Assembly (NCBI RefSeq): GCF_029854215.1 | Contig: NZ_CP122961.1 | Span: 4,030,001 to 4,094,000, forward strand | From: Halomonas alkaliantarctica | Lineage (GTDB): Bacteria > Pseudomonadota > Gammaproteobacteria > Pseudomonadales > Halomonadaceae | Direction of reading: 5' to 3' | Length of the DNA stretch: 64,000 nucleotides | Shown here: positions 24,210 to 36,433 of the stretch, piece after piece | Layout: every line of letters begins with the position of its first letter | How positions within the stretch are numbered: position 1 is the stretch's first letter | Notes under the pieces: generated by a model | Database searches by the model: none | What the model saw: only the letters and a program-made list of their open reading frames with translations | What the model was told of the DNA's origin: nothing | Position numbers and translations under genes: made by a program

Positions 24210-24808
24210 CTAGCAACGTTGTCGCATTGGTCATGGCCGCCGGTTACTCGCGCCGGTTTGGCGAGCGCGACAAGCGCTGTGCGCGTCTGGAAGATGGACG
24301 CACGCTGTTAGCTGTCAGCGTTACCAACGCAGAGCAAGCGCTTCCTCTGCTGCGCGTGGCGATCCGCGAAGAGGACGACGCAGACCTTTTAGGGCTTGCC
24401 GAAGGCACGCCGCTTATTCGCATTCGTCAGGCGCGCCTTGGGCTGGGTTCAAGTCTGGCCGAGGCGGTAACGGCGCTTAGCCATGATCCGCGCCTCTCTA
24501 ACGTGGAAGCAGTGGCGATTTTATTGGGCGATATGCCCTACCTTCAGCGAGACACGCTATTCGCGCTACAGCAGCTAGCCACTCACGACACCATCGTGAG
24601 GCCCTGTTTCAAAGGCCAACCAGGCCATCCGGTTATATTCGGACGTTCACTATGGCCAGCCCTTGAATCTTTAAGCGGCGATGCCGGTGCCAAAGACATT
24701 ATTCGTCGCCACACGGCGCACTACCGAGAGTATGCCGTGCAGGACAACGGCACGCTTATCGATATCGACACGCCAGAGGGGCACAGCATCACGGCGCCAG
24801 TGTCATGA
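24203..24808 (+). CDS. mocA: MocA/MobA-like molybdenum cofactor nucleotidyltransferase
   Basis: NTP transferase of 201 residues resembling MocA, which makes the cytidylylated cofactor used by xanthine-oxidase-family enzymes. The N-terminal motif LVMAAGYSRRFG with a Lys shortly after matches the family, and the metal site is in ILLGDMPYL. The C-terminal part has GQPGHPVIFGRSLWPAL and IDIDTPE, also typical. It follows the XdhC-like gene by 22 bp of tandem repeat with no good ribosome site, so coupled translation is possible. The gene end overlaps the convergent DUF411 gene by 20 bp. Confidence 0.85.
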   Translation: MSSSNVVALVMAAGYSRRFGERDKRCARLEDGRTLLAVSVTNAEQALPLLRVAIREEDDADLLGLAEGTPLIRIRQARLGLGSSLAEAVTALSHDPRLSNVEAVAILLGDMPYLQRDTLFALQQLATHDTIVRPCFKGQPGHPVIFGRSLWPALESLSGDAGAKDIIRRHTAHYREYAVQDNGTLIDIDTPEGHSITAPVS

Positions 24809-25235
24809 ACGGCTCATCTTGCTGGTCGCTAAACGCATAGACGTTATAGGGTTCGTCCTGAGGCCCCGGCATACCAGGTGTGCCAATGGGCATACCCGCC
24901 AAGCCAATACCGTCAACGTCAGGCTGTTGCTCAAACAGCGCCTGCACGGCCTCCATCGGTACGTGGCCTTCGATCCAATACTCGCCCATCTCGATGGTAT
25001 GGCACGACCCCAGGCCATAGGGCACGCCCGCCTGCTGCTTAATATCACCCAGCTCTACGTCATCAATGATCGTTACGTCTACGCCGAGCTCTTCAAGGTG
25101 GCGCGCATAACCGTCACAGCAGCCGCACTGGGGATTTTTATACAGTGTTGCCTCTAGCGGTAACGCCGCCTGAGCGGAGACCGCCCCAAGCAGCATGGAA
25201 CCTGAGAGCAAAAGCTTGGTGCTCATATGTCGCAT
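24789..25235 (-). CDS. DUF411 periplasmic metal-binding protein
   Basis: Exported protein of 148 residues. After a leader (LLLSGSMLLGAVSAQA) the DUF411 pattern follows: a thioredoxin-like beginning LYKNPQCGCCDGYARHL with the CGCC motif, VPYGLGSCHTIEMGEYWIEG, and the closing GLAGMPIGTPGMP. Members commonly sit in copper and silver resistance clusters and are thought to bind metal; function is not established. The ATG at 25235 lies 9 bp after AAGGAG. It is the last gene of a minus-strand group with the Met-rich protein. Confidence 0.85.
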   Translation of the reverse strand: MRHMSTKLLLSGSMLLGAVSAQAALPLEATLYKNPQCGCCDGYARHLEELGVDVTIIDDVELGDIKQQAGVPYGLGSCHTIEMGEYWIEGHVPMEAVQALFEQQPDVDGIGLAGMPIGTPGMPGPQDEPYNVYAFSDQQDEPFMTLAP

Positions 25236-25301
25236 TATTTTCAACTCCTTAATGTGAACGACTGCAGAGGTACTTGACCAGCGACGCGATCACTAAGTCA
25301 A

Positions 25302-25382
25302 TTAATAAAGCATGGCCAGGACCATCAACCAGCCTAACCACCCCATTGACCCCATAAAAGCAAAGCATTCCACGTTCATCAT
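25302..25382 (-). CDS. Candidate 26-residue membrane peptide
   Basis: A short open frame encodes a single hydrophobic helix: MMNVECFAF, then GSMGWLGWLMVLAMLY to the end. It contains five further Met after the starting pair, one Cys and three Trp, with almost no charge. It lies between the Met-rich protein and the DUF411 gene in the same direction, in a gap that otherwise holds nothing. A weak GAAG stands 8-10 bp before the start. Composition and place suggest a small inner-membrane protein of the copper group; I do not recognise a family. It could be chance, though chance rarely gives so uniform a helix. Confidence 0.4.
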   Translation of the reverse strand: MMNVECFAFMGSMGWLGWLMVLAMLY

Positions 25383-25420
25383 GGCATCACTTCTATAAAG
25401 CAAGAGGCAATCGCCAAGGC

Positions 25421-26008
25421 TTATTGCGGGCCTTGGGGGCGGGGCATGCGTTCCCTCATCTGTTCACGCTGCTCATCGGTTAATAAGTCCTGCATCTGAT
25501 TATGCATGCGCACGTTGTCAGCCATCATTTCGCCATGAAGGTTGGCCATTTGAGCATGCAGCGCCTTTACTTCCTCTGGTTCAGGGCGCTCAGTCTGCAT
25601 GATTTGCATCATCTCGTCGCGCAGGTTCATCATTTCGCCCATTCGCTCAAGTTGGGCCGCACGGTGTTCCTGGCGCATCTCACGCACGGAACTCATCTGC
25701 TGCTCGTTGAGTATACCGACCATGCTGGACATAGGCCCCATGCCTCCCATCATTGGGCAAGGCATCATCCCGTTTTGCCCTCCCATCATCATTCCTGGGT
25801 ACATGCCTTCTTGACTGCCCATCATCATATAGGGATACATGCCTCCTTGACTGCCCATCATGAAGCCCGAACCCATACCGCCTTGGCCGCCCATCATGTT
25901 TCCATAGCCTTGGGCGCCCTGGTTCATACCTTGAGCGAAGATGGCACTGCTTGTGACACTGAGGCTTGCAACCAGACCAATGGCAAAGATCATCTTGTGC
26001 TTAACCAT
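25421..26008 (-). CDS. Met-rich periplasmic Spy/CpxP-like protein
   Basis: Exported protein of 195 residues. The leader (IFAIGLVASLSVTSSAIFA) is followed by a Met/Gly-rich region of about 60 residues built on a repeated GSQGGMYPYMMM-like unit, then a helical part with NEQQMSSVREMRQEH and LLTDEQREQMRERMP, which resembles the LTxxQ motifs of Spy/CpxP. Met clusters of this kind bind Cu(I) in CopA and PcoC-type proteins. The ATG at 26008 follows GAGAGGAAATATC. It heads a minus-strand group that diverges from copCD. Copper sequestration is inferred. Confidence 0.7.
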   Translation of the reverse strand: MVKHKMIFAIGLVASLSVTSSAIFAQGMNQGAQGYGNMMGGQGGMGSGFMMGSQGGMYPYMMMGSQEGMYPGMMMGGQNGMMPCPMMGGMGPMSSMVGILNEQQMSSVREMRQEHRAAQLERMGEMMNLRDEMMQIMQTERPEPEEVKALHAQMANLHGEMMADNVRMHNQMQDLLTDEQREQMRERMPRPQGPQ

Positions 26009-26043
26009 GATATTTCCTCTCATCAAGTTGCGGGTCGAGACAT

Positions 26044-26073
26044 CGCCTTATCCATTAAAAATGGAAGAAGGCG
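26044..26073. repeat. Imperfect inverted repeat before Met-rich gene
   Basis: CGCCTT-CCATT and AATGG-AAGGCG arms surround a 3-nt centre, with 2- and 3-nt internal gaps. It stands 36 bp upstream of the Met-rich gene and could be a leader hairpin or an operator. Confidence 0.35.
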
Positions 26074-26167
26074 GAGTTAGCTTTCATTACAAGCCTATAG
26101 TCTATAGGTGGCCCGAAGGTAAAGGAGAAACCGATTACAATACTTAAACGTTGTCACAAATCATTTC

Positions 26168-26200
26168 TTTCAGCCTTGTTTCAGGTTGGCATGTTATAAA
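26168..26200 (+). promoter_or_regulatory. Promoter with CopR-type direct repeat (copC side)
   Basis: TTTCAG at 26168 and again at 26179 (11-bp period) are followed after 10 bp by TATAAA (26195-26200). The same layout recurs before the cupredoxin gene, and the repeat alone before copA. Eleven-bp direct repeats overlapping the -35 region are usual for OmpR-family activators. The start codon of copC is 200 bp downstream, beyond a pseudogene remnant. Confidence 0.65.
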
Positions 26201-26210
26201 ACCGACTCGC

Positions 26211-26345
26211 TTCCATGAAGAAGAGCGCATCAAAATGCTGCTCAAAAACCTCGCCGCCCAAGAAGCGCAAGACGCCATGCGCCTTGTTCGCTAAAGGGCA
26301 AATGAACGATGTCTGAAGGCTCAACCGAATCAGTTTTAGCGCTTC
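26211..26345 (+). pseudogene. Remnant of ferritin-like gene plus start of P-type ATPase
   Basis: The plus-strand frame reads HEEERIKMLLKNLAAQEAQD then AMRLVR and a stop. It matches the intact ferritin-like protein at 35025-35483 in two separate parts: residues around HEEERARMLLNYLAAQEAE and the C-terminal HEAMRLVR, with about 90 codons missing between. The identical string ATGAACGATGTCTGAAG follows in both places, and in the intact locus it contains the P-ATPase start codon. Here the ATPase frame ends after about a dozen codons. The remnant fills the leader of copCD. It is surely non-functional as protein. Confidence 0.75.
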
Positions 26346-26399
26346 CGCGATGAAGTAACGGCATCCATTCAACCTTGAAAAAAAATATAAGGATACGGT

Positions 26400-26771
26400 A
26401 TGCAAAAGAAGACGAGTTCGCTCCCTATCATTCACGCTATCTTAGCAACGCTGTTGATATCGCTAGCAATCCCAGTACTGGCCCATGAAGGGCGCGCAAA
26501 CACTTTGCCTAAGGATGGCACCACCGTTCAGAATTCCCCAGCGACGATTGGCATAGAGTTTGGTGGCATGATGCGCGTCACCCAGTTTGAGGTGACAGGC
26601 CCGGACGGCTCCGTTCCTCTTGATGGTCAGCCAGGCACTGAACAGGTCGAACAATACTTCGTGAAGCCCGATGAAATTCTGTCGGCTGGGGACTACCAGG
26701 TGCACTGGCGCGGCCTATCGGATGACGGGCACATGATGTCCGATGGTTTTAACTTCTCGGTTGAGCCCTGA
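26400..26771 (+). CDS. copC: Copper resistance protein CopC
   Basis: Periplasmic copper-binding protein of 123 residues with the CopC/PcoC beta-barrel fold. A leader (ILATLLISLAIPVLA) is cleaved so that the mature protein begins with His, a Cu(II) ligand in this family. Further marks are LPKDGTTVQNSPATIGIEF, a TGPDGSVPLDG turn and the C-terminal YQVHWRGLSDDGHMMSDGFNF with the remaining His ligand. It lacks the Met-rich Cu(I) loop of PcoC. AAGGATACG precedes the start. copD follows after 3 bp, so the two form one unit. Confidence 0.9.
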   Translation: MQKKTSSLPIIHAILATLLISLAIPVLAHEGRANTLPKDGTTVQNSPATIGIEFGGMMRVTQFEVTGPDGSVPLDGQPGTEQVEQYFVKPDEILSAGDYQVHWRGLSDDGHMMSDGFNFSVEP

Positions 26772-26774
26772 TCC

Positions 26775-27680
26775 GTGACCTGGTGGCGCTCCGTAAATAG
26801 CATCGATGCATGGACCGTTACGATGATTCTTGTGGCGGCCGGGATTTACCTTAGCGCCCTAGTCGCGACGGGGGCCGTGTTGTTCCGTCTAGCGTTTCCC
26901 CAACTCTCTGATCATGACCGGAGGCGCGTCGCCCGCATGGGTGTCCTTGCTGCCCGCGCGGGGGTCATCCTGATTCTGTTCCAGTGGCCTATAGAAGCTG
27001 GGTACCTTGGGGGCGGCAATATAGCGGCTGCAACCAACCCCATGCTGCTCGGGATCGTGTTCGAAGGCGCGTCCGGGAACCGGCTAATATTGGCGGTAGC
27101 AGGCTTGCTGCTGGTCCAGGCGATTCAGCTTAATAACGTAGCACTCTCGAAAACAGCCAATAGCTTGAGCCTGGTAGGCGTATTACTGGTAATGCTGGCA
27201 TTCGTGCAGGTGGGACATACCGTGAACACCCCACGCCTCGTTCTGTCTGGCTTGCTGATCGTTCACCTGACGGCGGCGGCATTCTGGGTGGCCTCGCTGT
27301 GGCCGCTGTTCCATTTAGTGGGACGGGTTCACAGCCAGGACAATACCGCCCGCATTCTGTCCCGTTTCGGGAAACTCGCCATGGGCGGAGTTGGCTTGTT
27401 GGTGCTGGCGGGTGTAACGTTGGCCACCCTGCTGACGGGCGGTTTCATGCCACTGCTCACCACGGCATATGGACAATTCTTGATCGGCAAGATATTGATT
27501 GTAGCGGCGCTACTGCTATTTGCTGCCGTGAACAAGTGGCGGCTTGTACCAGCCTTTGAGAGCGGCGACGCAACGGCCCCACGACGGCTACAGCGCAGTA
27601 TTGCACTAGAGATGATGCTGGTCGCGGTTATCCTGCTGATCACAGCGGTGCTGACAAGGGTGACATCACCAAATGGGTGA
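26775..27680 (+). CDS. copD: Copper resistance membrane protein CopD
   Basis: Inner-membrane protein of 301 residues with about eight hydrophobic helices, the CopD/PcoD family that works with CopC in copper passage across the membrane. Typical parts are LILFQWPIEAGYLGG, VGHTVNTPRLVLSGLLIVHL, AAFWVASLWPLFHL and LIGKILIVAALLLFAAVNKW. The GTG start lies 3 bp after the copC stop and there is no independent ribosome site, so coupled translation is likely. Confidence 0.88.
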   Translation: MTWWRSVNSIDAWTVTMILVAAGIYLSALVATGAVLFRLAFPQLSDHDRRRVARMGVLAARAGVILILFQWPIEAGYLGGGNIAAATNPMLLGIVFEGASGNRLILAVAGLLLVQAIQLNNVALSKTANSLSLVGVLLVMLAFVQVGHTVNTPRLVLSGLLIVHLTAAAFWVASLWPLFHLVGRVHSQDNTARILSRFGKLAMGGVGLLVLAGVTLATLLTGGFMPLLTTAYGQFLIGKILIVAALLLFAAVNKWRLVPAFESGDATAPRRLQRSIALEMMLVAVILLITAVLTRVTSPNG

Positions 27681-27976
27681 CCGACAGGACAACCGCCTTG
27701 GGTAGTTAAGAACCCAGCTTAATAGCTATAAGCAACGCTATCTGGATAGGCTAGGCAGGTGCCATCCGCGGCAAGAGATACACACCCGTCACGTGGCTAT
27801 CAGGACGCCGACCAGATCCGCAAGAAAGCCCCTCCTTCCCAGAACTTTAAAAGTCACAAAAAGTTGATTATCAGCTGATTACGAATTCCCAAATGAGTTA
27901 ATAAAGACGCAACAGTCTGTATTCATAATATAAATGCCTTTCTCAGAGCAATAAGGAGTTTATTGCACAGGCAAAG

Positions 27977-27991
27977 CATACAAAATGTATG
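27977..27991. promoter_or_regulatory. Perfect 15-bp palindrome in copD-cupredoxin gap
   Basis: CATACAAAATGTATG is fully symmetric around a 3-nt centre, with GGCAA and TTGCC partly extending it. It resembles operators of heavy-metal-type response regulators (consensus near CATTACAAAATTGTAATG). It stands about 70 bp upstream of the direct-repeat promoter. The rest of the 442-bp gap (27681-28122) shows no credible gene. Confidence 0.4.
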
Positions 27992-28061
27992 TTGCCAAAA
28001 GGTCAGTATCCATCATTATGCTTGAAATGTTTTTTTGCGGCAGATCATATTATGACTTTAG

Positions 28062-28094
28062 GTTCAGGCTGGTTTCAGGTTAATACCGTATAAA
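28062..28094 (+). promoter_or_regulatory. Promoter with CopR-type direct repeat (cupredoxin-copRS)
   Basis: GTTCAG (28062) and TTTCAG (28073) repeat at 11 bp, and TATAAA (28089-28094) follows after 10 bp: the same geometry as the site before copC. The start codon of the cupredoxin gene is about 30 bp downstream, so the promoter assignment is good. Confidence 0.7.
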
Positions 28095-28122
28095 GAACAA
28101 GTAACAATAACCTTTAGGGTAA

Positions 28123-28629
28123 ATGACCATGCGCAAAAACACTTTAGCAACGTCCTTGTTTGCCTTTTCACTAAGCTTGGTAACGAGTGCGGCGTGGGCT
28201 GCTCCCGGCTACGACGGTGGGGACAGTAACCTAACCGATGCTGACGTTGATCGCACGATCCGCCTCGACGCTGGCGATATGTGGTTCGACCCTGAAAAGC
28301 TAGAAATGACGGCTGGGGAGATTGTTAAATTTGAAATTACCAACACCGGCAACTTAGAGCACGAATTTGTGATTGGTAGCAAAGAAGCCCAGGAAGAACA
28401 TCGTCAAATGATGCTAAACATGGCCAATGGCGGAGGCCATGACATGTCGAATATGTCACACGGCGACGGTCAAGATATGACCAGTATGAACATGGCAGGC
28501 GTCACCATTGCGCCTGGCGAAACAGAGACTCTATTATGGAGTGTCCCTGATAATGTTTACGAGTTAGAGTATGCCTGTAACCTTCCCGGCCATTACGAAT
28601 CCGGCATGTATGGCAATTTTTCTCACTAG
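28123..28629 (+). CDS. Periplasmic cupredoxin (CopI-like)
   Basis: Type 1 copper protein of 168 residues with a cleavable leader (TSLFAFSLSLVTSAAWAA). Ligands are readable: His in NLEHEFVIG, then Cys-His-Met in YACNLPGHYESGM. Between them lies a Met/His-rich insert (MANGGGHDMSNMSHGDGQD) of the kind seen in CopI proteins that protect against periplasmic Cu(I). The start at 28123 or 28129 cannot be separated; AGGGT lies just before. It is followed by copRS at 14 bp and preceded by the direct-repeat promoter. Confidence 0.87.
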   Translation: MTMRKNTLATSLFAFSLSLVTSAAWAAPGYDGGDSNLTDADVDRTIRLDAGDMWFDPEKLEMTAGEIVKFEITNTGNLEHEFVIGSKEAQEEHRQMMLNMANGGGHDMSNMSHGDGQDMTSMNMAGVTIAPGETETLLWSVPDNVYELEYACNLPGHYESGMYGNFSH

Positions 28630-28643
28630 CCTGACGCATAACA

Positions 28644-29309
28644 ATGAAACTGTTGCTACTCGAAGATGATGATTTGCTGGCGGAAAGCTTGGCAGAGAGT
28701 CTCAAGGACAACGGTTACCTGGTTGACTTGGCCGCTTCATTGAAAGCGGCCAAGTCGCTTATGGCAACCGAGCATTATGAGCTGGCTATTTTAGATGTCG
28801 GTTTGCCCGATGGGTCGGGACTCGACCTGCTCGCCCAGTGGCGTAAGCAAAAACGCAGCACGCCTATTTTGATTTTGACAGCGCGCGATACCTGGGAAGA
28901 TAAAGTCATCGGTCTGGAAACGGGGGCAGATGACTATCTCACCAAGCCCTTCCACGAAGCCGAACTGATGGCCCGCCTTAAGGCCCTGCTGCGCAGGCAG
29001 TCAGGTCAATTATCTCAGGTGATTACGCTGAACGGAGTATCGTTGGATGAAGCAGGCCAACGAGTGTGCTTAGAAGGGGAAACCTGGCGTTCGCTAACGG
29101 CGACGGAGTTTCGGTTACTGCGCTACTTGATGCTTCACCCAGACCGCATTCACTCGAAAGAGCAGCTACTAGAGCAGCTATATGCCTTGGAGCAGGATGC
29201 CGCTGCACCCAACTTGGTTGAAGTCTATGTCGCTCGTCTGCGCCGCTATCTCGGCAAATCGGTCATTCAAACTCGACGCGGCCAGGGGTATTTCTTTGTT
29301 TCACATTGA
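28644..29309 (+). CDS. copR: OmpR-family response regulator, copper type
   Basis: Response regulator of 221 residues. The receiver domain has the acidic pocket LLLEDDDLL, phosphoacceptor Asp51 in LAILDVGLPDG, Thr in LILTARD and Lys in LTKPFHEAEL. The C-terminal winged helix (LTATEFRLLRYLMLHPDRI, VEVYVARLRRYLG) binds DNA, usually at direct repeats of 10-11 bp. It lies between the cupredoxin gene and its kinase inside the copper island, so control of the three direct-repeat promoters is the natural inference. The QseB/CopR subgroup label rests on context. Confidence 0.88.
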   Translation: MKLLLLEDDDLLAESLAESLKDNGYLVDLAASLKAAKSLMATEHYELAILDVGLPDGSGLDLLAQWRKQKRSTPILILTARDTWEDKVIGLETGADDYLTKPFHEAELMARLKALLRRQSGQLSQVITLNGVSLDEAGQRVCLEGETWRSLTATEFRLLRYLMLHPDRIHSKEQLLEQLYALEQDAAAPNLVEVYVARLRRYLGKSVIQTRRGQGYFFVSH

Positions 29310-30630
29310 TCGGCGCAGTTTACGTATTCGACTCCTTGTATGGTTAGGCGGCGTGGCGCTGTTGGTGGTGGTCACTACGTGGCTACTGCACGGGATTTTT
29401 TTACATAGCCTTGCACGAGATTTCTTAGGCGAACGCTTACAGCGTGAAGCTAATCACGCGGTCGCGCAGTTAGAACAAGACCAAACTGCAGTACCGACTG
29501 CGCTCGACTCAGTAAGCCAAGGCTACCAAGTCTTTCATCACCTTTATGTGCTCCGCCTTAACGGCTCAATCAGCACTTCCGACCCGCAATGGCAGCAAAA
29601 GTTGGCCCCACTGCTGGAAGAAAATGGCGATGCCCTACTAGACGTGAATCACGGCGAGCAGCACATGCTCGTTTATCGTCGCTATTTTGAGTGGCAGGGA
29701 ACACAAGGCGTGCTACTGGTGGGTGAGGATTTTTCTCAAGTCGAAGAAGGGTTGGCAACCTTGCACTGGTGGGTCGGTGGGATTGCCGCCGTGCTTTTAG
29801 GGATGCTCATCATACTCAATATGCTGGCGGTTAACCGTGGTCTCACGCCACTTTGGCAACTACGTCAACAGCTTGAAGCCTTGCGATCAGGCAAACGTGA
29901 ACGCTTGTCATTAGTAGCCCCTTCCGAGTTAGATGCGTTAGTCGACCAATTAAACTGGTTTATGGACGACATTGATCTTCGTTTGAAGCGCTCGCGAGAA
30001 TCAGTCGCCAACCTATCACATGCATTAAAAACCCCGCTGGCAGCCGTTACCCAAGTACTACGTGGCAACCGACCCATTGATGAAAACCGTCGTCATAAAC
30101 TGCTCAGCCGAGTAGAGGATATTAATGCCCAGCTGAATGCGGAGCTGCGACGTTCACGTATTGCAGGCCCTAATGCAGGGCGAATGGCCAACGTCACACG
30201 TGATAGCTTACGGCTCATCGAGATGTTCCGTAGCCTTTACCCTGAGAGCATGTTCAACCTTACCCACTCAGCCCGCGAGAAAGACCAAGTCCCTATTGAA
30301 GCTCACGACTTTTCAGAAATATTAGGCATCGTGCTTGATAACGCTGGCAAATGGGCGAATAGGCACGTTCACTGCGACATTGCAGTCATGGTGACTGCGC
30401 TCACGATAACCATTGATGACGACGGCCTCGGTGTTGCAGAAGAGGAACTTTCGCGCTTGGGAGAGCGTGGCACACGACTGGATGAACGCCGTCCTGGCTA
30501 CGGCTTAGGCCTTTCGATTCTTGCGCAGTTAATTTCTCGTTACTCGGGGCACTCGCAGTTTGAACGCAGCCCACTGGGTGGCCTGCGCGTTATGATAACT
30601 TTGCCACTGACGGGTGAAGTGGCTAATTAA
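29296..30630 (+). CDS. copS: Sensor histidine kinase, copper type
   Basis: Membrane kinase of 444 residues. There is a first helix (LLVWLGGVALLVVVTTWLL), a periplasmic domain of about 130 residues, a second helix (GGIAAVLLGMLIILNMLA), a HAMP-like linker, the H-box NLSHALKTPLAA, N-box LDNAGKWAN and G-boxes DDDGLGV and GYGLGLSIL. No ATG is available near the first helix; a TTG at 29296 follows AGGGGT with 6 bp spacing and overlaps the copR stop by 14 bp. This start is my choice and should be treated as likely. Confidence 0.85.
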   Translation: MFHIDRRSLRIRLLVWLGGVALLVVVTTWLLHGIFLHSLARDFLGERLQREANHAVAQLEQDQTAVPTALDSVSQGYQVFHHLYVLRLNGSISTSDPQWQQKLAPLLEENGDALLDVNHGEQHMLVYRRYFEWQGTQGVLLVGEDFSQVEEGLATLHWWVGGIAAVLLGMLIILNMLAVNRGLTPLWQLRQQLEALRSGKRERLSLVAPSELDALVDQLNWFMDDIDLRLKRSRESVANLSHALKTPLAAVTQVLRGNRPIDENRRHKLLSRVEDINAQLNAELRRSRIAGPNAGRMANVTRDSLRLIEMFRSLYPESMFNLTHSAREKDQVPIEAHDFSEILGIVLDNAGKWANRHVHCDIAVMVTALTITIDDDGLGVAEEELSRLGERGTRLDERRPGYGLGLSILAQLISRYSGHSQFERSPLGGLRVMITLPLTGEVAN

Positions 30631-30635
30631 TCATC

Positions 30636-30668
30636 ATTCAGCGTTGATTCAGCTTCTTCCATCAAGAT
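30636..30668 (+). promoter_or_regulatory. CopR-type direct repeat before copA
   Basis: ATTCAG occurs at 30636 and 30647, again with the 11-bp period and 5-bp gap. The -10 position predicted by the other two sites holds CAAGAT, a poor match. It lies in the 68-bp gap between copS and copA and would allow separate induction of copAB. Confidence 0.5.
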
Positions 30669-30698
30669 GGTGCTATTCACCATTGATGGGATTAACAC

Positions 30699-32489
30699 AT
30701 GGCACGCTCAAGTATCATTTCTCACCTACTTTCTCGTCGGCAATTGTTGAAAGGTGGTGCTGCCTTAGGACTAGGTTCAGCTGCAGCAATGGGGTTAACG
30801 CCCGCCTGGGCAAACCCTTGGGGCCGTACCAATGTCTATGCTCAGGGCGTCGAAGAAGGGCCTGAGGTATCACTGGCTATCCGCCGTGAATCGTTGCCTA
30901 TTGACGGACAAGAAGCCCGTCCTATTAGCATTAACGGTACCAGCCCTGGCCCGTTGATTCGTCTGAAAGAAGGTCAAGACGCCGTACTGCGTGTTACCAA
31001 CTTGCTGGATGAACCCACTTCCATCCACTGGCATGGCCTCATTCTACCGCCAGAAATGGATGGCGTGCCTGGCGTTAGCTTTGCCGGTATCGCTCCTGGT
31101 GAAACTTTTACCTATCGATTCCCCGTCCGTCAGAACGGTACCTACTGGTACCACAGTCATTCAGGTATGCAGGAGCAGTTGGGCCATGCAGGGCCACTAA
31201 TTATCGACGCTGCCGAGCGCGAGCCTATCCGCTTCGATCGTGAGCACGTGTTGCTGCTGACTGACTGGACCTTTGAAGATCCCATGTCGGTGTTCCGTAA
31301 TCTGAAAACCATGGAAGGGTATTACAACTTCCAAGAGCGCACGATTGCTGACTTCTTTGCCGATGTCCGCAATAACGGTTTTGCTCAGACCGCCGAGATG
31401 CGTGGCATGTGGGCTCAAATGCGAATGAGTTCGCGAGATATCGCCGATGTCACCGGCAGTACCTATACCTATCTGCTCAACGGCCATTCACCACAGGAAA
31501 ACTGGAATGCATTGTTCAAGGCCGGTGAGCGAATACGGCTACGCGTGATCAATGGGTCGGCCATGTCATTCTTTGATGTCCGTATTCCTGGTTTGAAGAT
31601 GACAGTGGTGGCCGCCGATGGACAACCGGTTCAACCGGTTCCCGTGGATGAGTTCCGTATTGGCGTGGCTGAAACCTACGATGTGCTTGTTTCACCTGAA
31701 GATGACCGGGCATACACCATCTTCGCTGAATCCATGGATCGCAGCGGCTACGCACGCGCAACCCTGGCACCGCGTGAGGGCATGCAGGCTGAAATCCCTG
31801 AACGACGTCAAATTGCCGACCGCGGCATGGAAGCCATGGGTGCCCACGGCATGGACGGCATGGACCATTCCAACATGCCGGGCATGGACCACTCTGGCAT
31901 GTCGAATATACAAGGCATGGATCATTCGAACATGGAGGGGATGGATCACTCTACTATGGGCGGCATGTCGGGCGAGCAGGCGAAAATCGGCGAAAATGGC
32001 ATGCTCGTTGCTGGTGAAGCACAGCCCGGCTCCCGCTACGGCCAGGCAGGCATTGGCATCGACCCCGACGAACGTCGTGTTTTAGTTTACCGCGATTTAA
32101 AAGCCTTCACGCCATGGCCTGACCGCCGCGAACCAGGCCGTGAGATTGAGCTGCACCTGACCGGCAATATGGAACGTTACATGTGGTCGTTCGACGGCAA
32201 GAAATTTAGCGAAGTGACCGGCCCGATTCATTTTGTGAAAGATGAGCGCCTGCGCCTCATCCTCGTCAACGACACCATGATGGAGCACCCCATTCACCTC
32301 CACGGCATGTGGATGGAGCTGGAAAACGGCCAGGGTGAATTGATTCCGCGCAAACACACACTAAATGTGAAGCCCGGCGAGCGCGTGTCTGCGCTGATCA
32401 CCGCAGACGCCGAGGGTAGTTGGGCGTTCCACTGCCACCTTCTCTATCACATGGATGCCGGCATGTTCCGCGTTGTTCAGGTTTCTTAA
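30699..32489 (+). CDS. copA: Periplasmic multicopper oxidase CopA (PcoA family)
   Basis: Copper-resistance oxidase of 596 residues exported folded by the Tat system, with leader motif SRRQLLKGG. Copper ligands of a laccase-type site are all visible: IHWHGL (residues 109-114), WYHSHSG (150-156), HPIHLHG and HCHLLYHMDAGMF near the end. Between domains lies a Met/His-rich stretch of repeated MDHSNMxGM units (about residues 385-425) that binds Cu(I). It oxidises Cu(I) in the periplasm. copB follows after 9 bp. This is not the P-type ATPase also named CopA. Confidence 0.95.
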   Translation: MARSSIISHLLSRRQLLKGGAALGLGSAAAMGLTPAWANPWGRTNVYAQGVEEGPEVSLAIRRESLPIDGQEARPISINGTSPGPLIRLKEGQDAVLRVTNLLDEPTSIHWHGLILPPEMDGVPGVSFAGIAPGETFTYRFPVRQNGTYWYHSHSGMQEQLGHAGPLIIDAAEREPIRFDREHVLLLTDWTFEDPMSVFRNLKTMEGYYNFQERTIADFFADVRNNGFAQTAEMRGMWAQMRMSSRDIADVTGSTYTYLLNGHSPQENWNALFKAGERIRLRVINGSAMSFFDVRIPGLKMTVVAADGQPVQPVPVDEFRIGVAETYDVLVSPEDDRAYTIFAESMDRSGYARATLAPREGMQAEIPERRQIADRGMEAMGAHGMDGMDHSNMPGMDHSGMSNIQGMDHSNMEGMDHSTMGGMSGEQAKIGENGMLVAGEAQPGSRYGQAGIGIDPDERRVLVYRDLKAFTPWPDRREPGREIELHLTGNMERYMWSFDGKKFSEVTGPIHFVKDERLRLILVNDTMMEHPIHLHGMWMELENGQGELIPRKHTLNVKPGERVSALITADAEGSWAFHCHLLYHMDAGMFRVVQVS

Positions 32490-32498
32490 GGAGGCAGT

Positions 32499-33269
32499 AT
32501 GAAGACTAAGCATTACTTAACCATCGCCAGCGCCGCCCTCGGCATAGTGGCCGCTACCACCGTTCAAGCCGAAGATGGCTATGCCGCTCCGGGTCATTGG
32601 CCAGCGCCCACTGAGGAACATAATATGGGCATGGCGCTGTTTGATCGGCTTGAATATAGTGTGCCCGATAAAGGCCAAGACGCCGTGGTATGGGACTTTC
32701 AAGGCTGGTACGGCGGTGATGTCAACCGCATTTACCTCAAATCAGAAGGCGAAAACGTCCAAGGCGACGGGGAAGATGCTGAGTTTGAGTCCTTGGAATT
32801 ACTCTATAGCCGCCTAGTGGCTGATTTTTGGGAGTTACAGGGGGGTATCGGTTATCAAGGCGGGGTGTTCTCCGATGATCACGCCGAACGCACCTATGGG
32901 GTGGTTGGCCTGCAGGGCGTGATGCCCTACGGCATTGAAACCGACGTTGCTATGCAAGTGAGCGAAGATGGCGACGTGGCCGCCAGTTTTGAAGGCGAAT
33001 ACGACTTGCGCCTGACACAGCGGCTTTATCTGCAGCCACGCACTGAAATTGCCGTTGCTGCCAGCGAAGTTGAACAGTTTGGTGTGGGCAAGGGGCTTAA
33101 TTCAGTGCGTGTGGGCATGCGTCTCGGCTACGAGGTGACCCGCCGCTTCGCTCCGTACGTGGGCACTTACTGGGTAAAAAAGTATGGCGATACCGCTGAT
33201 CTTTCTCGTGCTAGTGGAGAAAGCAGCGAAGATACCGGCGTGGTTGCGGGTGTCAGGTTAATGTTTTAA
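32499..33269 (+). CDS. copB: Copper resistance outer-membrane protein CopB
   Basis: Outer-membrane protein of 256 residues of the CopB/PcoB family, which acts with CopA. Leader IASAALGIVAATTVQA; then the family core: LEYSVPDKGQDAVVWDFQGWYGGD, LWLKSEG-like NRIYLKSEG, ELLYSRLVADFWELQGGIGY, and the barrel end APYVGTYWVKKYG plus VVAGVRLMF with terminal Phe. The Met/His-rich N-terminal extension of the plasmid PcoB protein is absent, making it shorter. AAGGAGGCAG precedes the start. A terminator follows the gene. Confidence 0.92.
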   Translation: MKTKHYLTIASAALGIVAATTVQAEDGYAAPGHWPAPTEEHNMGMALFDRLEYSVPDKGQDAVVWDFQGWYGGDVNRIYLKSEGENVQGDGEDAEFESLELLYSRLVADFWELQGGIGYQGGVFSDDHAERTYGVVGLQGVMPYGIETDVAMQVSEDGDVAASFEGEYDLRLTQRLYLQPRTEIAVAASEVEQFGVGKGLNSVRVGMRLGYEVTRRFAPYVGTYWVKKYGDTADLSRASGESSEDTGVVAGVRLMF

Positions 33270-33291
33270 ATCGTTAAACACTTAATAACTC

Positions 33292-33316
33292 GCGCCACCG
33301 GAAGGTGGCGCTTTTT
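33292..33316 (+). terminator. Terminator after copAB
   Basis: GCGCCACC and GGTGGCGC form an 8-bp GC-rich stem with a 4-nt loop, followed by TTTTT. It closes the copper transcript. Confidence 0.92.
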
Positions 33317-33659
33317 GTTAAATCGTCGTGTCATCGCCAGACACCAAGAGTGGTTGGAAGGCCGATGAAAATGTCTTCCATGAACATATTTGACCTAAAG
33401 GCAGCACATAGGATCTAGGCTGATGGGTAAGCAATTTTTAAAGCGATATACATCGATAAACGTGAACCCAAGTGCGCCTGTATCGGCGGCAACAGCAATG
33501 TGCCATTAGGCTTTGTATCGCTTACCGAAAACCTAGTGATGATGGGAATGGGACTGTGGATGCCGCTGCGGATGCTGCTTGGATAATTATTGCCTGCTTT
33601 TTCCGAAGCACTTGATCAGGTTGCGTTTAAGCAGGTCATCCAGGCGAGGAGTAATTTAT
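33317..33659 (+). other. Gap with possible coding remnant
   Basis: No start-to-stop gene is convincing here. One plus-strand frame (about 33430-33585) stays open for some 50 codons without a start and reads REPKCACIGGNSNVPLGFV, then ends VMMGMGLWMPLRMLLG. The Met-rich amphipathic end and the Cys pair look protein-like, so this may be what is left of a small gene. The promoter of the permease gene must lie in the right part. Confidence 0.3.
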
Positions 33660-35024: not shown

Positions 35025-35483
35025 ATGGACGTTAGAACCTTTGGTGAGTTAATCGATTGGACCCGTCAGTTACACGAGCATCTTGCAGCTTGCCTTGCTC
35101 ATTGCGCCGATATACACGAAGAAGAGCGCGCTCGCATGTTGCTCAATTACTTAGCTGCACAGGAAGCGGAAATGCAGCGCGTTGTGGAGCGCTTTGAACA
35201 GACTGCTGACGCAAAAGCATTAAAAACCTACGTTTATGACTATTTGGAGCATAAACCTATCCGTACGCATCGTACCTGCGATGCTCCCTACTCTACGCTA
35301 AGTGTTGACGACATTTGCCGAGAGGTTTTTGATTTCCATGAGCAAACGATAAACCTTTATCGAACCCTCGCTGGCAAAGCGGAAATTCCAGAAGCTAAAG
35401 AGCTCCTAGAGTCTCTTTTGGCTCTTGAAGAGCACGAAGCCATGCGCCTTGTTCGCCAAACGGGGAGAATGAACGATGTCTGA
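35025..35483 (+). CDS. Ferritin-like four-helix protein, unknown function
   Basis: Cytoplasmic protein of 152 residues, almost all helical. Helix segments DIHEEERARMLLNYLAAQEAEMQRV and VFDFHEQTINLYRTLAG, and the last helix LALEEHEAMRLVRQ, have Glu/His pairs like those of rubrerythrin and ferritin-like proteins; metal binding is therefore possible but not shown. I do not know an experimentally studied member. AGGAGGTACCC precedes the start. Its last 8 bp overlap the start of the P-ATPase pseudogene, which implies an old coupled operon. A shrunken copy lies at 26211. Confidence 0.65.
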   Translation: MDVRTFGELIDWTRQLHEHLAACLAHCADIHEEERARMLLNYLAAQEAEMQRVVERFEQTADAKALKTYVYDYLEHKPIRTHRTCDAPYSTLSVDDICREVFDFHEQTINLYRTLAGKAEIPEAKELLESLLALEEHEAMRLVRQTGRMNDV

Positions 35484-36063
35484 AGACTATACCGAGACAA
35501 AGGTAAAAGACCCTGTTTGCGGACACTGGTCCTTCGGACGAACTCAAGGACATGACCCGGCGTTTCTGGATCGGCCTAGTACTGACACTACCCGTGTTTG
35601 CCCTAGAAATGGGTGGGCACGCGTTTGGCCTTATACATTTTATTTCCCAGCAAACCTCTAACTGGATTCAACTGCTGCTGGCAACGCCGGTAGTCGTCTG
35701 GGCAGGTTGGCCATTCTTTGTACGCGGATGGCGCTCGCTTCTCCGTCGCAGCCTTAATATGTTCACGCTCATCGTGATAGGTACCGGCACCGATGTGGCA
35801 ATAGAAAGCGCTGGTCACCCTACTGCGTGGCGACCTCACCGGTATTGCCACGGCGCATAAGCTCTCTAAAACCACCATGCGCAACATCCGTCAAAACCTG
35901 TTTTTTGCCTTTGCTTATAACGCGGCAGGCATTCCCATGCGGCAGGGATTTTGTACCCCTTCACAGGTATGCTGTTATCACCGATTATCGCTGCAGCGGC
36001 GATATCACTCTCGTCAGTGAGCGTGATTGGCAACGCCTTACGGTTACGTATGACGGCGCTGCG
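35476..36063 (+). pseudogene. Broken Cu-type P-ATPase
   Basis: Pieces of a heavy-metal P1B-ATPase remain in order but out of frame. The N-terminal KVKDPVCG (YHS-type start) is followed, in another frame, by [38 protein letters not shown] and RSLNMFTLI (first helices). The text then jumps at about 35780 to [12 protein letters not shown], skipping the CPC metal site, the DKTGT phosphorylation site and most of the catalytic domains. Frameshifts near 35813 and 35940 break the C-terminal part ([19 protein letters not shown], then [19 protein letters not shown]). The protein cannot work. Its last bases overlap the DUF423 gene. Confidence 0.85.
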
Positions 36064-36433
36064 CTAGCAGGGCTACCACTCCAAGCGCCAGCCAACCGGC
36101 CATCAACAGCAGCCCGCCAATGGGTGTGACAATGCCAAGGTTCAGCCCCGCCAGCGCCATCAGGTAGAGCGAGCCTGAAAAGCACGCCATGCCTAGCGCC
36201 CACAGCGCCAGCACCCAGCGGTGTCCGGCAAGCGGCTGCACTTGGCGCCATACCAGCACGATCATGATGGCTAGCGTGTGCCAGGCCTGATAGCGCACGC
36301 CGGTTTCAACAGCGCTCACCATCGTTTCTGTGGTGCGCGCCGCTAAGCCATGGGCTGCATAGGCGCCTAGCATTACCAGCATGGCGCCCGAAAGCGCCAC
36401 GATACACCACCACACTTTATCTGTTCGCTGCAC
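36044..36433 (-). CDS. DUF423 membrane protein (YgdD-like)
   Basis: Small inner-membrane protein of 129 residues with four hydrophobic helices. The DUF423 pattern is clear: [47 protein letters not shown] and [17 protein letters not shown]. Function is unknown in this family. The 3' end overlaps the last codons of the degenerate P-ATPase on the other strand. Confidence 0.85.

Follow-up and report, generated by a model that had tools for sequence, protein, structure and literature searches.

A tandem TTCAG box as the very probable operator of a copper response regulator outside the CusR subfamily in Halomonas and related bacteria

A 64,000-nucleotide stretch of the Halomonas alkaliantarctica genome (RefSeq assembly GCF_029854215.1, contig NZ_CP122961.1, positions 4,030,001 to 4,094,000), which was analyzed whole and is called the window below, contains a copper island in which the direct repeat TTCAG-N6-TTCAG precedes three sets of cop genes. 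The finding is sound, and the repeat is very probably the binding site of CopR, a response regulator encoded in the island itself. The motif keeps its spacing and its position, is conserved in relatives and is coupled to one clade of regulators; CopR is predicted to bind it and to activate the cop genes when its partner kinase, CopS, senses copper. What is new is the corrected spacer, the identity of a regulator that is not of the CusR type, the wide conservation and a testable rule relating one base to one residue.

The repeat in the copper island

Box 1 (26169-26184) lies before copCD, box 2 (28063-28078) before copI-copR-copS, and box 3 (30637-30652) before copAB; these are the only exact copies in the window, and all are on the plus strand. 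The preliminary description of this DNA had located the repeat correctly before copC, the copRS block and copA, with each coordinate one base low, and had given it a spacer of 5 bp. The N5 form has no match in the window, whereas the N6 form, with the 11-bp period that the heading of that description gives, has three. On the same strand, TATAAA follows exactly 10 bp past the second repeat at box 1 (26195-26200) and at box 2 (28089-28094), as had been noted before, and a recount of the agreement between the flanks of these two sites gives 24 of 32 positions instead of 23 of 31. At the same offset from box 3 stands CAAGAT (30663-30668), a weaker -10-like hexamer of the form CAnnAT that is kept before copA in relatives.

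The three boxes in the window compare with 0.15 expected, and none of 100 window shuffles reached three. The 4.23-Mb genome has 10 exact N6 matches (one for the pattern read backward), a total that is no excess by itself, since about 10 are expected when the window shuffles are scaled up; what stands out is that three boxes cluster within 4.5 kb and that each of them precedes cop genes. A matrix built from relatives only, with the window left out, scores boxes 1, 2 and 3 at 37.2, 35.2 and 35.7, compared to 0 to 21.7 for the other seven exact matches in the genome and 11.2 for the highest-scoring site elsewhere in the window. Six of those seven lie inside open frames of at least 400 nucleotides, and of the five exact genomic matches in which the second -10 position is A, three are in the island. 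The shuffles, the matrix scores and the counts of spacing and position in relatives (below) rule out a chance origin of the boxes. A promoter scan found no ordinary sigma-70 -35/-10 match on the plus strand at the boxes, and its 5 matches did not exceed the number in shuffles (mean, 4.2). An RNA element was also considered and rejected, as an Rfam scan of 24500-33500 gave no match.

Conservation across copper loci

A search of 201 Halomonas-family genomes identified a CopR relative (E<=1e-60) in 103. We compared 100 fetched regions, which are not all of the matches; a 1-kb stub (L148) was dropped, leaving 99 loci plus the window, among which the arrangement copI-copR-copS-copA-copB is widespread. 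One or more exact boxes occur somewhere in 96 of these 100 sequences. Within 300 bp before the gene, an exact box (in brackets, one with at most one mismatch) stands upstream of copI in 70 (75) of 82 cases, of copA in 79 (85) of 103 and of copC in 8 (8) of 9, with one truncated copC left out. Boxes directly before copR are few, 9 (16) of 100, because copI is usually the first gene. Over the same distance no exact box was found upstream of copB (0/100), copD (0/9) or copS (0/101), and the reversed pattern had no exact match before any gene and one-mismatch matches at one copS and one copA. SpyL genes (0 of 25 with a box upstream) and DUF411 genes (exact in 4 of 62, 7 with at most one mismatch) were rejected as general targets.

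TTCAG ranks first among all 5-mers in the Halomonas-family upstream regions. The 180 distinct upstream regions hold 145 matches of TTCAG-Nk-TTCAG with k = 6, and none of the other spacers between 0 and 20 bp has more than 2, so that these are tandem pentamers with the 6-bp spacer of the BqsR type. Across 197 sites, xAxxxT peaks at an offset of 10 bp (125 sites; 33 at the next-best offset), and TAxxx[TAC] peaks there likewise. Among the matches listed, the hexamer at this offset is TAtAAa in copI promoters and CAnnAT in copA promoters. A strict pattern, consisting of the box, SWT and a -10 ending in T, was also sought anywhere in the 201 genomes; it misses most TATAAA sites because its -10 must end in T. 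It is found in 74 of the 103 genomes with copR and in 4 of the 98 without, and within the genus of the window in 25 of 25 and 0 of 25, respectively, with a single match of the reversed control in all 201 genomes. One copR-less genome, G040, has a match near-identical to the copI box of G021, which may be real.

Beyond the family, order-level CopR relatives share ~47 to 54% identity, and 20 of their regions, not all of the matches, were fetched. copA or copI is transcribed away from copR in 14 of the 20; all 14 divergent loci have a box toward the copper genes, and 11 also have one toward copR. The copper genes of L261 are ~5 kb away, and neither copA nor copI was seen in the fetched regions of L247, L255, L260 and L262. 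A further set comprised the best 80 of 89 loci from Marinobacter, Alcanivorax, Alloalcanivorax, Halopseudomonas, Aliidiomarina and others, of which 79 were readable after L343 was dropped for its short upstream DNA. copA or copI lies within 4 kb in 76 of these 79, and all 76 have a box within 400 bp upstream of copR, on both strands in 68; xAxxxT stands at exactly 10 bp in 124 of 128 sites. Among the three loci without nearby copA or copI, L313 has both boxes and L369 has one. Rather than being absent or randomly placed before orthologous genes, the motif thus occupies fixed sites: in the Halomonas family it stands before copI, copA and copC, and in Marinobacter, Alcanivorax and Halopseudomonas loci it lies between copI and copR.

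Homologues of copR with 74 to 97.5% identity are carried by Halomonas and Vreelandella plasmids (NZ_CP011053.1, NZ_CP130611.1, AP019515.1, NZ_CP045401.1, and NZ_CP045400.1), and the copper island is therefore probably mobile. In the Halomonas-family loci, the box also stands before lgt (11 sites; L083 and ten more), a DcaP-type porin gene (6 sites; L127 and kin) and a gene for NADH oxidoreductase chain 3 (2 sites; L101 and L135), labels that come from scanning one member per cluster. These three genes are possible further targets of CopR.

The regulator, its predicted switch and the island genes

The product of copR (28644-29309, plus strand) is a response regulator of the OmpR/PhoB family (PF00072, 89 bits; PF00486, 68 bits; both above cut-off), and copS (29296-30630, plus strand) encodes a sensor kinase (PF02518), in agreement with the regulator and kinase originally described between the boxes. 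CopR scores 148.3 bits with the model of the CusR/CopR heavy-metal regulators (TIGR01387; cut-off, 279.2), and CopS scores 68.5 bits with that of the CusS/CopS kinases (TIGR01386; cut-off, 292.6); both assignments were rejected. The best NCBIfam models are PmrA for CopR (NF007928; 209.9 bits, below the cut-off of 330) and PhoQ for CopS (131 bits, below the cut-off of 497). By sequence, the nearest PDB chain of CopR is PmrA/BasR over the full length and CarR, which we take to be BqsR of Pseudomonas aeruginosa, for the DNA-binding domain; CopR is thus of the BqsR/PmrA kind. Its putative phosphoacceptor is Asp51. The open reading frame of copS is listed from an ATG at 29182, overlapping copR by 128 bp, and the TTG at 29296 is the likelier start.

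In CopS, numbered here on the 482-amino-acid frame, His70 falls close to where the first membrane helix ends and His195 close to where the second begins, as placed by eye. His70, His119, His120 and His195 are conserved in 93, 92, 94 and 94 of 96 Halomonas-family kinases and in 15, 14, 15 and 15 of 15 other copper-locus kinases. In 45 further relatives set apart as non-copper (L261, where included, does have copper genes ~5 kb away), His70, His119 and His195 are not conserved, and His120 mostly is (41 of 45). The positions of His70 and His195 resemble those of H42 and H176 in Escherichia coli CusS, whose membrane-adjacent H42, F43 and H176 are reported to bind metal (PMC10100754), and of His41 and His140 in P. 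aeruginosa CopS, which have been assigned to copper sensing (PMC7763554).

In the predicted switch, CopS would detect surplus copper in the periplasm by means of histidines located where its sensor domain faces the membrane, and more CopR would then carry a phosphate at Asp51. CopR would occupy the box as two head-to-tail molecules, each on one TTCAG, 11 bp apart and on the same face of the DNA, and would recruit sigma-70 RNA polymerase to the -10 located 10 bp downstream, as PhoB and PmrA likewise recruit it; recruitment is proposed because the box spans -35 and no TTGACA-like -35 is present. In this way copCD, copI-copRS (with positive autoregulation) and copAB would be activated jointly. 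If the -10 hexamer is taken as -12 to -7, the box extends by arithmetic from about -38 to -23. The idea that the repeat replaces a -35 box therefore holds for the box as a whole, which overlies the -35 position, and not for the second repeat, which is not exactly there. A comparable activation from a box near -35 is described for BqsR (PMC4682146). Judged from these sequence comparisons, TTCAG-N6-TTCAG is with high probability the operator of the island-encoded CopR; the conservation of the box, its fixed placement and its coupling to the regulator clade support the initial prediction that it is the CopR binding site of this lineage.

Three alternatives were weighed. It is improbable that the box is read by some other DNA-binding protein, be it a further response regulator or a copper regulator of the cytoplasm, and that CopR acts elsewhere. 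The genome does hold 13 further CopR-like response regulators (E<=1e-20), and the binding of CopR to the box is something we infer; however, the box accompanies the CopR clade in several families of the order, also at loci without copper genes, and one of CopR's own paralogues, L015, is directly preceded by a TTAAG box in its place. Two genomes with copA and without copR (below) point weakly in the same direction. A shade less probable is repression, in which CopR bound in the absence of copper would block RNA polymerase from a box over -35. The box does overlie that position, but promoters without a -35 hexamer bear the usual mark of activator dependence, and the like arrangement activates in the case of BqsR (PMC4682146). 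A constitutive promoter element of the lineage, read by a sigma factor alone, would explain the constant distance to the -10 and can otherwise be dismissed almost entirely, as the box tracks copper- or regulator-linked genes, the strict pattern occurs in just those 4 of 98 copR-less genomes, and sigma is not known to make use of a duplication at an 11-bp step.

Several observations count against CopR as the activator acting at this box. Four of the 100 Halomonas-family sequences (L105, L106, L109, and L141) have no exact box; an exact box is missing from 24 of 103 copA and 12 of 82 copI genes, and even with one mismatch none is found at 18 copA and 7 copI. Some of the copA and copI genes without a box lie inside longer operons. 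A one-mismatch box stands at 5 of 100 copB genes, and the -10 of the copA sites is weak. In the order-level set, L244, whose copper genes and copR share a strand, has no exact box, and the Aliidiomarina locus L348 has the regulator with neither a box in the preceding 400 bp nor copA or copI nearby. The association of box and copR is partly built in because both share a locus. Two genomes that have copA (family TIGR01480) without copR, G150 and G176, lack the strict box, a weak test because one copA piece of G150 starts at a contig end. Finally, copper as the signal is suggested by the neighboring genes and by histidines whose membrane placement was made by eye.

The other island genes are all on the plus strand. 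copC (26400-26771; PF04234, 62 bits) and copD (26775-27680; PF05425, 82.9 bits) are above cut-off, as is the copI-like periplasmic cupredoxin (28123-28629) with PF00127; its best NCBIfam CopI model gives 105.6 bits, below the cut-off of 280. The multicopper oxidase gene copA (30699-32489; TIGR01480, 797 bits; cut-off, 479) and copB, for an outer-membrane copper protein (32499-33269; PF05275, 237.7 bits; cut-off, 27), have the products of a copAB(CD) operon. The leader between box 1 and copC (26214-26328, compared with 35115-35495) represents a decayed copy, with internal deletion, of the gene at 35025-35483, the identity being 84% across 69 bp and 72% across 57 bp. A Pfam scan gave no family for that gene, and box 1 may once have driven it. 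A copper-sensing leader peptide before copC was rejected, since among the 7 relatives checked its 33-amino-acid frame is constant neither in length nor in sequence and the leader is such a decayed copy. Open frames at 35552-36129 resemble, by eye, the remnant of the start of a copper P-type ATPase.

The wider regulator family and comparison with known systems

At the level of the class, 369 genomes were surveyed and 40 regions were fetched, which are not all of the matches and include one from the family of the window and one from its order. These relatives, with ~46 to 53% identity, are mostly at non-copper loci: copA or copI was seen in none of the 40 fetched regions, and a cytochrome b561 relative is present in 27. 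At two example loci, Pfam identified a dihaem cytochrome c with cytochrome b561, and DUF1924. TTCAG is the most enriched pentamer with an 11-bp period here (27 seen in 18 of the 40 loci; 1.3 expected), indicating that a wider family of regulators shares the box. In some of the loci from other Gammaproteobacteria (L180-L219), TTCAG-N6-TTCAG stands before dihaem cytochrome, cytochrome b561 or DUF1924 genes, beside a CopR-like regulator. Three or four TTCAG at 11-bp steps occur near CopR-like regulators in L163 and L190 (one genome), L154 and L155, resembling the multi-pentamer promoters of BqsR. In the tree, most copper-locus regulators fall on one side of a fork whose support, 94/69, is not strong.

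The recognition-helix residue Arg198 of CopR aligns with Asn196 of PmrA and Arg201 of PhoB, and CarR has His at this place. Arg198 may explain TTCAG as opposed to TTAAG. From 190 regulators, 65 near-copies were removed to leave 125, and boxes of the form TTxAG-N6-TTyAG were collected within 1.5 kb, with 18 loci without a recognized helix left out of the helix analysis. Regulators with Arg or Lys at position 198 have xy = CC in 115 of 133 boxes and AA in none; those with His have AA in 4, CA in 5, AC in 4, CC in 1 and others in 4. By half-sites, C:A is 246:16 for Arg/Lys and 12:18 for His, and outside the copper clade it is 58:13 and 12:18 (p=9e-5, with descent ignored). A phylogenetic proof failed, as only 3 independent pairs fall on supported branches, which is not significant. 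Moreover, three loci with Arg regulators (L183, L210, and L243) hold an exact TTAAG-N6-TTAAG in larger regions, beyond 1.5 kb; in L210 it stands directly before the cytochrome gene, with no TTCAG box in the region. The few independent contrasts and these exceptions make the code only a lead.

The broadest reading is one to which we give somewhat less than an even chance: a copper two-component lineage other than CusR may govern how the Halomonas family, Marinobacter, Alcanivorax and their kin resist copper, having arisen within the BqsR/PmrA-like family, whose other members would use the same TTCAG box at dihaem-cytochrome/cytochrome b561/DUF1924 loci, and being kept apart from TTAAG paralogues by the code of Arg/Lys198 for C and His for A. 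The box, its spacer and its -10 distance provide a precise operator for copper control in a large, mostly marine group of bacteria. The regulator of this group scores below the cut-off of the usual CusR/CopR model, the protein-family model by which the CusR category is defined in a marine survey (PMC10141476). How sister response regulators stay apart in one cell becomes a question for a one-base, one-residue experiment with few constructs.

The pho box of PhoB, in the phosphate regulon, is likewise an 11-bp tandem repeat near -35, with TGTCA as its unit. PhoB has Arg at the position of Arg198 by alignment, and this residue, Arg201, is remarked on in PMC3973317. The closest counterpart is the BqsR operator of P. 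aeruginosa, reported as TTAAG-N6-TTAAG, in which a spacer of 5 or 7 bp gives <10% expression (PMC4682146). Both boxes consist of tandem pentamers with a 6-bp spacer, and in BqsR the downstream pentamer overlaps -35 and the outcome is activation (PMC4682146). The CopR box differs in its third base, C instead of A (all window boxes are TTCAG, not TTAAG), in lying at copper genes rather than serving an Fe(II) response, in a recognition helix with Arg where CarR has His, and in a kinase that carries histidines specific to copper loci. The PmrA/BasR box has head-to-tail half-sites, CTTAAT and CCTAAG, five bp apart (PMC3973317 and PMC4660055), and thus the same 11-bp step, but a TAA core where the CopR box has TCA. 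Of the PmrA residues described as reading bases, Asn188, Asn196 and Arg210 (PMC4660055), Asn196 is the one replaced by Arg198 in CopR.

The similarity to established copper systems lies in their role. Regulators of the CusR/CopR/PcoR group (TIGR01387) and AgrR, presumably CusR-like, also form a kinase-regulator pair beside cop genes with a box near the promoter. The AgrR core is an inverted repeat of the form 6-4-6, with adjacent direct half-site repeats in some operators (PMC7380067), so the direct repeat is indeed unlike the palindromic cop/cus boxes with which it was first contrasted. Literature searches of titles and abstract openings, with subscription journals mostly not covered, gave no TTCAG-N6-TTCAG at copper genes among the matches listed. 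A copper box made of direct repeats is not in itself a novelty, because the copper response regulator CopR of Corynebacterium glutamicum uses one with an 11-bp period, TGAAGATTT-nn-TGAAGATTT, at -266 to -285 from the start of cg3286 (PMC3140484); that box has another sequence, belongs to another phylum and lies far upstream of its gene. Since a tandem 11-bp box near -35 is usual for BqsR/PmrA-like regulators, the architecture in Halomonas is less unusual than first thought, and the TTCAG box varies an established plan and does not amount to a new type of promoter.

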